Translations under genes and position numbers: made by a program
Shown here: positions 7,592 to 38,750 of the stretch, one piece after another
How the letters are laid out: the number at the start of each line of letters is the position of its first letter
Numbering within the stretch: the first letter of the stretch is position 1
The notes under the pieces: model-generated
What the model saw: only the letters and a program-made list of their open reading frames with translations
What the model was told of the DNA's origin: nothing
Database searches by the model: none
NCBI RefSeq assembly: GCF_003634635.1
Contig: NZ_RBJB01000005.1
Location: 248,001-312,000, forward strand
Length of the DNA: 64,000 bases
Source: Marinobacter nauticus
Lineage (GTDB): Bacteria; Pseudomonadota; Gammaproteobacteria; Pseudomonadales; Oleiphilaceae
Direction of reading: 5' to 3'

Positions 7592-7982
7592 GCCCGCAAG
7601 TTTGGTGCTGTGCCACGGGTGAGGAAGCCCTCCCTGAGACCGCTACGAGCACCCGCAAGCGGGTCCAGCCAGCAATCATAGATTGCCGTCGTTCTGCTGC
7701 GCATGAAGCTTCGCTTCATAATCGCTTGCCTCACCCATGTGCGCTTTGCTTTGGCCATCCATGGCCAAAGAAATCTCAGGGAGGGCTTCCTCACCCGTGG
7801 CATCATGCTTTGGTGATTGCTTATCGGAATACGCTTGTTCTTACTTTTCTGTGCCGGTTCACTTTCTCTGTCTGTAGCCATTGTTTTATTGAGTTTACTG
7901 TTGTAGTTTTCAGCTAACAAGTGTGCGCTGAAGGTTTCGTGCATGGTGAGTGTGTTCAACAGCAAATGGTGACAAGTAAAAG
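7592..7982. other. Gene-free stretch holding a large hairpin repeat
   Basis: Between the terminator at 7591 and the desaturase start at 7983 I see no credible gene. The stretch holds the hairpin element at 7611-7802 and, after it, about 180 bp of AT-rich DNA that probably carries the desaturase promoter. Short reading frames across it are produced by the inverted repeat and look unlike genes. Confidence 0.7.
7611..7802 (+). repeat. Hairpin element, copy A (expanded core)
   Basis: The two outer arms, 7611-7639 and 7774-7802, are perfectly complementary over 29 bp. The interior starts with ccgctacgagcac (7640-7652) and ends with catgtgcgctt (7737-7747) and ggccatccatggcc (7753-7766), parts of the core shared with the other three copies. 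About 84 bp sit inside the first inner hairpin. This insert contains three more stem-loops: acccgcaagcgggt, gcaatcatagattgc and atgaagcttcgcttcat. The element lies in intergenic DNA after a complete terminator. Confidence 0.85.
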
Positions 7983-17271: not shown

Positions 17272-18483
17272 ATGGATTTCAATATTTCCGAGAAAGGCCA
17301 GGATTACCTGAAGCGCGTGAAACAGTTCATGCGCGACGAGATTTTTCCCATTGATGAGCAGTATCACAAGGAGCTTGCTTCTCAGGAAAACCGCTGGGTG
17401 GTGCTGCCGATCATCAAAGAACTGAAAGAAAAAGCCAAGGCCCAGGGCCTGTGGAACATGTTCTTTCCTGACGACAAGTACGGCTGTGGCCTGCTCAACT
17501 CTGATTACGCCCTGATTGCCGAAGAAACCGGTCGCAGCTTCATCGCCCCGGAAATCTTCAACTGCAACGCGCCGGATACCGGCAACATGGAAGTACTGAT
17601 CCACTACGGCTCCGAAGAACAGAAAGCCGAATGGCTGCCGAAACTGCTGAGCGGCGAAATCCGCTCCGCCTTCTGCATGACCGAACCGGCGGTTGCCTCT
17701 TCCGATGCCACCAACATGGAAGCCACCGCCACCGTAGAAGGTGACGAAGTGGTGCTCAACGGCCGCAAATGGTGGAGCACCGGCATTGGCCACCCAGACT
17801 GCAAAGTGGGCATTTTCATGGGTGTAACCGACCCGGATGCCCAAAAGCACCGCCGACACTCAATGGTGCTGGTGCCGCTGGATGCCCCGGGCATCACCAT
17901 CGAGCGCATGCTGCCGGTCTTTGGCGCCTACGACGAGCCCTACGGCCACGGCCAGGTGTTGTTCGACAACGTACGTTTGCCCAAAAGCGCCATCATCGCC
18001 GGCCCGGGCCGCGGCTTCGAAATCGCTCAGGGCCGTTTGGGGCCAGGCCGCGTGCACCACTGCATGCGTGCCATCGGGGCTGCCGAGCGCGCTCTTGAGA
18101 TCATGATCAAGCGCGCTATGACCCGCGAAGCTTTCGGTCGGCCAATCGCCAAGCTGGGCGGCAATTCGGACATCATCGCCAATGCCCGTATGAACATCGA
18201 ACAGGCACGGTTGCTGACCCTGAAATGTGCCTGGGCCCTGGATACCAAGGGCATTATGGGCGCGTTGCAGGAAGTGTCCATGATCAAGGCGGTGGTGCCG
18301 AAGATGCTTCAGCAGATTGTGGATGACGCGATTCAGATTCACGGCGGGGCCGGTGTCAGCGACGATGATTTCCCGCTGACAGCGTTATTCGGCTACGCTC
18401 GGGTTCTGAGGTTGGCCGATGGCCCGGATGAAGTTCATCGGGCTATGGTGGCGCGGTTGGAGCTTCGGAAGTACAAGTCCTGA
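17272..18483 (+). CDS. Acyl-CoA dehydrogenase, ACAD10/11-like candidate
   Basis: The 403-residue flavoprotein has the acyl-CoA dehydrogenase fold: a helical N-terminal domain, the beta domain with CMTEPAVASSDATNMEA near residues 140-156, and the C-terminal helical domain with IHGGAGVSDDDFPL. Such enzymes oxidise acyl-CoA to 2-enoyl-CoA with FAD and pass electrons to ETF. The following genes encode an APH-like kinase, a histidine phosphatase and two SDRs. A specialised role in 4- or 3-hydroxyacyl-CoA breakdown, as for ACAD10/11 or LvaC, is therefore plausible. GAGGAG precedes ATG 17272. Two hairpin repeats separate it from the next gene. Confidence 0.88.
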   Translation: MDFNISEKGQDYLKRVKQFMRDEIFPIDEQYHKELASQENRWVVLPIIKELKEKAKAQGLWNMFFPDDKYGCGLLNSDYALIAEETGRSFIAPEIFNCNAPDTGNMEVLIHYGSEEQKAEWLPKLLSGEIRSAFCMTEPAVASSDATNMEATATVEGDEVVLNGRKWWSTGIGHPDCKVGIFMGVTDPDAQKHRRHSMVLVPLDAPGITIERMLPVFGAYDEPYGHGQVLFDNVRLPKSAIIAGPGRGFEIAQGRLGPGRVHHCMRAIGAAERALEIMIKRAMTREAFGRPIAKLGGNSDIIANARMNIEQARLLTLKCAWALDTKGIMGALQEVSMIKAVVPKMLQQIVDDAIQIHGGAGVSDDDFPLTALFGYARVLRLADGPDEVHRAMVARLELRKYKS

Positions 18484-18532
18484 GTCGGGCGTGGGAGTTT
18501 TACTCCTCTAGCCTCTGAGTGCGGAGGTGGGC

Positions 18533-18640
18533 GCCGGTGGCCCGGGGGTTCTGAAAAGCGCTCCTGGCGGCACATCCATGTGGCGCTTGTGTTCCGCCAT
18601 CCATGGCTCCACAAATTTTCAGAACCCCCGGCCCACCGGC
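18533..18640 (+). repeat. Hairpin element, copy B
   Basis: Arms 18533-18557 and 18616-18640 are complementary at 24 of 25 positions. The interior of 58 nt holds CACATCCATGTG and GCCATCCATGGC, the two CC-loop mini-hairpins of the shared core, in the same order as copies A and D. The arm sequence is mostly unlike the other copies. Confidence 0.85.
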
Positions 18641-18690
18641 TCCTGCGTGCTCAGGAGAGGGCTGTCAGAACAGCATGCTCAGTGGTATGG

Positions 18691-18802
18691 GAGTTGGTAC
18701 CGGAGGGGCTGTCCAAAAATGTCGGAGGCCATGGATGGCCGGAGAGAAGCGCACATGGATGTGCTTGTAGCGGTTTTTGGACAGCCCCTCCGGTACCAAC
18801 TC
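18691..18802 (-). repeat. Hairpin element, copy C (inverted relative to A, B and D)
   Basis: Arms 18691-18719 and 18774-18802 are perfectly complementary over 29 bp. The interior is exactly 54 nt. Its reverse complement matches the interior of copy D at nearly every position, including gcacatccatgtgc and ggccatccatggcc. It lies 50 bp after copy B and in the opposite orientation. Confidence 0.88.
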
Positions 18803-18857
18803 TTACTCCGGGGTAAAAAAGAACAGGAACTCCAAAACATAACGGAGAGAAACAACG

Positions 18858-38638: not shown

Positions 38639-38750
38639 CTGTGTCATTGGGGGCTACTTTCCAAAAACCGCTACGAGCACATCCATGTGCGCTTCTCTCA
38701 GGCCATCCATGGCCTTCGAAATTTTTGGAAAGTAACCCCCAATGACACAG
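38639..38750 (+). repeat. Hairpin element, copy D
   Basis: Arms 38639-38667 and 38722-38750 are complementary at 28 of 29 positions. The 54-nt interior, 38668-38721, nearly matches that of copy C reversed. It contains the two mini-hairpins gcacatccatgtgc and ggccatccatggcc, plus the linker gcttctctc. The element lies between divergent genes (YaiI and a histidine phosphatase). Confidence 0.88.

Follow-up and report, generated by a model that had tools for sequence, protein, structure and literature searches.

Four copies of a hairpin element in the window

The window, meaning the whole 64,000-nucleotide stretch of Marinobacter nauticus DNA analysed here, carries four copies of a hairpin element of about 112 nt, one of them expanded to 192 nt (Table 1). 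Re-examination of the window bore out both their presence at the positions given by an earlier note on this DNA and the pairing of the two arms within each copy. The core of about 54 nt described there was recovered in three copies (about 54-58 nt) and not in the copy at 7611-7802, where the inter-arm space is 134 nt because one mini-hairpin (7649-7742) is expanded. Two of the copies, 46 nt apart, form a head-to-head pair downstream of the gene at 17272-18483, which we take to be acyl-CoA dehydrogenase-like (this site is called locus A below); the right-hand member has orthologs in other species. When the focal copy (38639-38750) is read on the strand opposite to that printed, each of its two mini-hairpins has the sequence C-ANGGAN-G; this strand is referred to as the GGA strand.

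Table 1. Element copies, arms and hairpins in the window (P1, outer stem; P2 and P3, inner hairpins; R1, covariance model).
Feature	Position	Strand or pairing	Basis
Long variant, 192 nt	7611..7802	minus	R1 103.7 bits; arms 7611-7639/7774-7802, 29/29, inverted repeat 100%
Expanded P2 region in place of 14-nt hairpin	7649..7742	minus	GGA site lost, reads AUGGGU
Hairpin P3, AUGGAU loop, long variant	7753..7766	minus	sequence
Element copy, left-hand pair member	18528..18644	GGA strand minus	R1 77.7 bits, outside model
Arms of left-hand copy	18530-18557/18616-18643	93%	inverted-repeat search
Hairpin P2, AUGGAU loop	18570..18582	minus	sequence; single-copy predicted fold pairs differently
Hairpin P3, AUGGAU loop	18596..18607	minus	sequence
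Element copy, right-hand member of head-to-head pair	18691..18802	GGA strand plus	R1 118.2 bits, copy in model
Arms of right-hand copy	18691-18719/18774-18802	100%	inverted-repeat search
Hairpin P3, AUGGAU loop	18727..18740	plus	sequence and fold
Hairpin P2, AUGGAU loop	18751..18764	plus	sequence and fold
Element copy (focal)	38639..38750	structured GGA strand minus	R1 117.6 bits, copy in model; inverted repeat 97%
Arm P1	38639..38667	pairs with 38722-38750	inverted repeat 97%
Hairpin P2, loop AUGGAU, CANGGANG site 2	38677..38690	minus	sequence and fold
Hairpin P3, loop AUGGAU, CANGGANG site 1	38701..38714	minus	sequence and fold
Arm P1	38722..38750	pairs with 38639-38667	inverted repeat 97%

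The arms covary

A covariance model, R1, was built from 31 copies picked by core sequence with no condition on the arms: two from the window, two from elsewhere in the same genome (G000, locus L008) and 27 from relatives. Two close orthologs of other rows (L020 and L028) and the window copy at 18531-18644, which is of another length, were left out. Against the window, R1 gave E values of 6e-26, 9e-26 and 2e-16 and a partial match to the long copy at 1e-5, the matches of the copies at 18691 and 38638 holding by construction because both are members of the model. Four R1 copies in G000 are long variants (7611-7802 and those in L050, L073 and L046). In the long variant, P2 is swapped for about 94 nt with further hairpins.

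Across the 31 copies, all 29 arm pairs show changes on both sides and 95.6% of the arm cells are paired, a degree of covariation reached by none of 500 shuffles and by no slid register. The covariance model, a check that the earlier note had proposed, thus shows that its description of the arms as copy-specific yet complementary was right. Within the core, the model contains P2 as a hairpin of 4 bp and P3 with a core of 4 bp; some copies pair otherwise in single-sequence folds, and pairing is frequently missing in the outer four positions of P3, three of which are unpaired in 15-20 of the 31 copies. Predicted RNA folding of three copies gave z values from -6.4 to -11.2 on either strand, which is not expected by chance, and the predicted fold was more stable on the GGA strand in all three. 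On that strand the core is predicted to fold as a three-way junction with two C-ANGGAN-G hairpins. Stem differences between copies stay paired, as if selection watched the folded shape of one strand. Selection on structure, one of two origins considered in the earlier note, is strongly supported by this covariation together with the strand bias of G.U over A.C mismatches and the paired changes at inherited sites described below.

The element is a dispersed repeat of the genus

In G000, R1 gave 56 matches at E <= 1. The number of distinct copies is at least 57, obtained from 71 matches in 35 stretches plus the window, minus 14 opposite-strand duplicates. A further elaborated element with a large insertion lies at L063:16834-17112, a longer copy that R1 misses. 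In two relatives, 119 and 109 of the 150 candidates scored were R1 matches. R1 matched 60 of 61 genomes in the genus, with per-genome counts from 0 to at least 61; the figures are 45 of 145 genomes for the order and, at E <= 1e-6, 34 of 274 for the class. As the long stem of such a model could fit any extended hairpin, the sequences of matched loci were read directly. Outside the genus, a sample of 50 loci, all among the best-scoring, included 44 readable ones (six were too short for the motif script): in 36 of the 44, one strand retains at least two CANGGANG motifs, and the other eight have one, mostly with a near miss besides. The window elements are genuine copies of a repeat that is dispersed over the genomes of the genus.

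Mismatches in the arms point to one strand

A total of 134 copies was read, comprising all 57 of G000 and the better-scoring 77 of the 109 of G066, one of the two relatives. In 133 of these, one being out of register and excluded, the arm mismatches on the GGA strand include 74 G.U against 3 A.C; the corresponding count in the 31 core-selected copies is 20 to 0. Purine mismatches have G in 121 of 129 cases (132 copies), and in 29 of 33 in the strictest inner cut. Read on the other strand, such G-containing mismatches would be of the least stable kinds. The G.U to A.C bias was equal in both gene contexts, at 19 to 0 for copies whose two neighbours run opposite to the GGA strand and 30 to 2 for those whose neighbours run with it. 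The arm mismatches therefore point, independently of the loops, to the same GGA strand. Since they are strand-specific whatever the orientation of the flanking genes, they argue for a folded product of that strand, probably RNA. Something made of the GGA strand folds and matters, and RNA is the simplest reading; because G.T is also well tolerated in single-stranded DNA, the strand bias is no proof of RNA, and a folded product of single-stranded DNA is possible instead.

Loops and spacing fit a doubled CsrA site

According to two papers, a high-affinity CsrA/RsmE site is an ANGGAX hexaloop placed directly on a stem, with N needed and its identity free (PMC4005645), and two sites separated by 10-63 nt can be bridged by one CsrA dimer, best when the distance exceeds 18 (PMC7652899). 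In the copies read, an ANGGAX hexaloop directly on a stem was found both by sequence and in the model. Of the 128 short copies, 124 have exactly two CANGGANG motifs (G000, 52 of 53; G066, 72 of the 75 read), and the other four have one. These figures may flatter the conservation of the loops, as the training copies of R1 had AUGGAU loops and the G066 sample consists of better scorers. Despite this possible bias towards intact loops, R1 matches score far above threshold. The fixed letters of the motif (C, A, GGA and G) rarely vary in the copies read, while the two variable positions have the compositions T149 G76 C14 A13 (N) and T205 C33 A12 G2 (X). The distance from GGA to GGA is 20, 21 or 22 nt in 124 of 124 copies. 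These figures were derived from the motif count; an automatic longest-stem table was noisy due to alternative hairpins and was left unused.

The loop, its closing pair and the spacing fit the published CsrA site, doubled at bridging distance, and from this agreement in sequence we infer that the copies may bind CsrA. The partner is at hand: a search for csrA found it in all 29 genomes covered, and G000 gave two matches. The second of these, at G000:C1:1042299-1042460, is a divergent csrA-like match. A search of mainly open-access literature found no report of these repeats as CsrA-binding elements.

The layout is that of TwoAYGGAY RNA

The earlier note knew of no named family with this layout. 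This was wrong: it is the layout of TwoAYGGAY RNA (RF01731), read for the focal copy on the opposite strand. In both, a long outer stem of low sequence conservation bears a pair of hairpins with AYGGAY-type loops, and on the same strand. AYGGAY-like loops lie inside the outer stem of the element, with a second letter that is not always Y (G in 76 and A in 13 of 252). The RF01731 model aligned end to end with the window copy at 18682-18811 and scored 35.1 bits, below its gathering score of 43 bits. In G000 it found 16 places at E <= 1, the best with 40.6 bits, and among the matches listed all seven are R1 copies. Over 12 genomes, 11 had a match at E <= 1, and four places in three genomes, two of these in the same genus, rose above the cut-off. 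At the gathering score, RF01731 had no match in the window, in 20 loci of the genus and order, in 20 loci of other families or in 13 stretches of G000, and a search of the window with Rfam at gathering score likewise gave no match. MicroRNA families that appeared beside or above RF01731 at low E values were rejected, being far below their own cut-offs and matched by long-hairpin pairing. Given the alignment and the coinciding places, we regard the element as a relative or variant of RF01731.

In the accessible part of its description, TwoAYGGAY is a candidate RNA of human gut, gammaproteobacteria and Clostridiales (PMC2864571), and a passage of a later paper proposed in 2014 that it binds CsrA (PMC4333381). 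The accessible text of four articles (PMC2864571, PMC4333381, PMC11661157 and PMC11701678) contains no description of it as a high-copy dispersed repeat. The element differs in this respect, with dozens to more than 100 copies per genome, head-to-head pairs and, elsewhere, MITE-like units. It also resembles CsrB/CsrC and RsmX/Y/Z, described in the accessible portions of two papers as RNAs with repeated GGA hairpins that sequester CsrA (PMC4005645, PMC4333381); however, those are single sRNA genes with several sites each, whereas the element has two sites, many copies and no promoter that we could see. What is new is the scale, with many dispersed copies, and the behaviour: pairs are strictly head to head, the core type changes, at least one copy has been inverted at its site, and elsewhere transposon-like units carry the element.

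Copies evolve at inherited sites

Locus A was followed by R1 search through 30 orthologous loci. The same head-to-head pair was found in 22, one member in four and none in three; the remaining locus (L090) looks like a fusion of the two members. For the right-hand member in 22 genomes, the arm cells comprise 557 Watson-Crick, 21 G.U, 2 A.C and 14 other combinations, and at 19 of 27 paired positions at least two Watson-Crick types are seen, although these paired changes are not independent events because the 22 species share ancestry. The left-hand (antisense) member, in 24 sequences with uncurated register, gave 596 Watson-Crick, 9 G.U, 5 A.C and 38 other, a weaker bias. Between species the core type can differ at this one site while the arms remain recognisably the same (type I in L076, L083 and L093, another in L078, L087 and L100), and in L077 only a remnant of the right-hand arms is left. 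At the 7611 site, R1 matched 11 of 30 loci, three with long copies (L106, L108 and L111) and the others with short or partial ones.

We also compared G066 with G000, using the 45 of 77 G066 copies with both flanks in the compared G000 stretches. A G000 copy in the same orientation was present for 32 of these 45 and absent for 13, of which six have a copy in opposite orientation or the other member of a pair, one has a long element missed by R1, and six are seemingly empty. Only one of the six opposite-orientation or pair-partner cases is a clear inversion with respect to the flanking genes (L167:18679-18791 against L059:4925-5037, arms 93% identical). Orthologous 5' arms have a mean identity of 73%. 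The data do not support the second origin considered in the earlier note, an insertion that copies local sequence in inverted form, as the arms are inherited at shared sites and change there in pairs. The empty sites that the note had suggested inspecting for a pre-existing arm gave the same answer: at the six sites empty in G000, the best arm matches (13-15 of 27) were no better than those of shuffled arms. A seventh site (L162; match 19/27, 0/200 shuffles) was dropped since G000 holds a longer, R1-missed element there.

Concerted change of the cores is suggestive only: the best paralog core beats the ortholog core in both genomes in 22 of 29 ortholog pairs, with the best of about 50 taken. 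By arm, the best of 52 paralogs equals or beats the ortholog in 25 of 29. Out of 53, the ortholog has a median rank of 3 when arms are compared and of 4 when cores are. The pair of L167:18463 with L059 was dropped from this comparison, as the L059 arms match a neighbouring copy. Copies occupy inherited sites, at which their evolution proceeds through paired changes.

A candidate role as a dispersed CsrA-binding RNA

With modest confidence, we favour the reading that the element is a dispersed repeat of the TwoAYGGAY type whose GGA strand would give an RNA with two-site CsrA hairpins, acting as a decoy or as a mark on RNA. The GGA strand would encode a structured RNA in which the long variable stem P1 presents two ANGGAN-hexaloop hairpins at a distance of 20-22 nt, so that either face of a CsrA dimer has its own hairpin. 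Any copy that is transcribed would then bind CsrA, either as a small decoy or as a mark on the RNA that carries it. P1 would need only to be a stem, so its sequence can drift by paired changes while the loops and junction stay fixed. The strand-specific constraint on structure, the fixed loops and spacing, the inheritance of sites and the csrA genes of the 29 genomes are established by computation; beyond them, we infer transcription of the copies and an effect in the cell.

If the copies bind CsrA, a large part of the binding capacity of this regulator could sit in dispersed, unannotated repeats, and a global regulator would be tuned by repeat number, for which the genomes of the genus give 0 to 119 matches. 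An orphan Rfam family would thereby gain a testable function and a mode of evolution. The case also shows that selection can act on how one strand of a repeat folds even as the letters of its stem are replaced. A bolder and more doubtful extension, offered tentatively, is that genomes of the genus carry a distributed CsrA decoy. Tens to more than 100 mobile, or formerly mobile, two-site traps would set the level of free CsrA through their summed transcription in both orientations, with stem sequence free, strand-specific folding enforced on every copy separately, and cores exchanged or turned round at their sites.

The main difficulty for these proposals is the random orientation of the copies together with the outcome of the promoter search, and the weakest link is the transcription of wrongly oriented copies. 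With gene calls from a simple hexamer model, the 134 copies of the two genomes fall into 43 in the same orientation as their neighbours, 37 opposite, 34 convergent and 20 divergent, as at random; the 57 copies of G000 give 16, 16, 15 and 10. Many copies are thus not on the mRNA of a neighbour in the right sense, and a function in the neighbour's mRNA was rejected on this ground. The loops are equally intact in opposite (34 of 34) and same orientation (41 of 42). A scan for sigma-70-type consensus promoters upstream of the 134 copies showed no enrichment over shuffled sequence (p = 0.93) or over the other strand (p = 0.64). Promoter scores were higher in the upstream than in the downstream flank (p = 0.002), and the other strand of the downstream flank scored highest of all. 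Close pairs (<400 nt) are head to head on the GGA strand in 14 of 14 cases among the copies read in the two genomes, the 5' ends of the two GGA strands pointing towards each other, as at 18528-18803; with this arrangement, a transcript of either direction would carry one correctly oriented copy.

Alternative explanations

The same random orientation and 14 of 14 head-to-head pairs, the latter recalling BIME and REPIN repeats, would also be found for a mobile DNA element in which single-stranded DNA of the GGA strand folds and serves as target of a transposase or of replication or recombination enzymes. Such recognition, and not CsrA, would then account for the conserved loops and stem. We consider this reading unlikely. 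It gains from the sites that are filled in one species and empty in another, from the one inverted copy, and from the surroundings of the element in other genomes. In the gammaproteobacterium G467 (L224-L234), 11 closely similar copies were found. Eight could be delimited, seven as a 165-bp unit with 17-18 nt terminal inverted repeats and one of 353 bp, each with an 8-10 bp target duplication; the search for the right terminal repeat failed in the other three. In most of these G467 copies, one of the two sites is an AGGGA loop and not the full motif, a kind of loop mentioned as a reported good binder in PMC4005645. A larger, 33-nt inverted repeat surrounds the one copy examined (L237) of nine near-identical ones in G286 (L235-L243). 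The terminal repeats of G467 and G286 are different sequences and lie outside the element, which suggests that other transposon-like units picked it up and speaks against mobility of its own. As in MITEs, the element of G467 lies within a short unit with terminal inverted repeats and target duplications; unlike in MITEs, no shared terminal repeat was seen in the flanks of the copies in the genus, where only a weak downstream tail motif was found.

REPs are intergenic and palindromic and occur in many copies and in inverted pairs. The element shares all of these traits with the REP/BIME/REPIN group, but it has variable arms around a fixed core where a REP is a fixed palindrome. Systems with a RAYT further differ in their Y1 transposase (PF01797), which had 0 matches in G000 with its at least 57 copies; a RAYT/REP identity was rejected on this basis, and the missing match also counts against a mobile DNA element. 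G004 has 22 PF01797 matches but 6 elements. Two further observations speak against such a mobile element: the arms keep compensating at a fixed inherited site, as an inert insert would not, and the ANGGAN letters, free positions and 20-22 nt spacing match CsrA, for which a transposase gives no reason. Of the functions suggested earlier, protein binding and mobility remain live, the former through the CsrA-type loops and the latter through MITE-like carriage in G467 and probably G286.

An improbable alternative is a REP-like element of mRNA, in which any stable hairpin would block exonucleases or end transcription and orientation would be irrelevant. The predicted fold is indeed very stable on both strands, and the copies are mostly intergenic: in G000, 43 of 57 are clear of every predicted ORF, ten touch none but short ORFs with low scores, and four extend over the start chosen for a long ORF. 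Convergent gaps are commoner than background, holding 34 of the 134 copies of the two genomes against 30 of 242 gaps in G000 stretches. A generic barrier, however, needs no fixed letters in loops and junction and gives no strand bias, and a ratio of 74 to 3 could not arise if the two strands were used equally.

Correction of one arm from the other by template switching is known for quasi-palindromes, and mutation of this kind alone, rewriting arms during replication, could account for only about 4% imperfect arm pairs (129 of 3,564) despite the divergence of orthologous 5' arms; it is a very improbable sole cause, as it predicts no preference of G.U over A.C tied to the orientation of the core and the observed strand bias speaks against it, although it may contribute.
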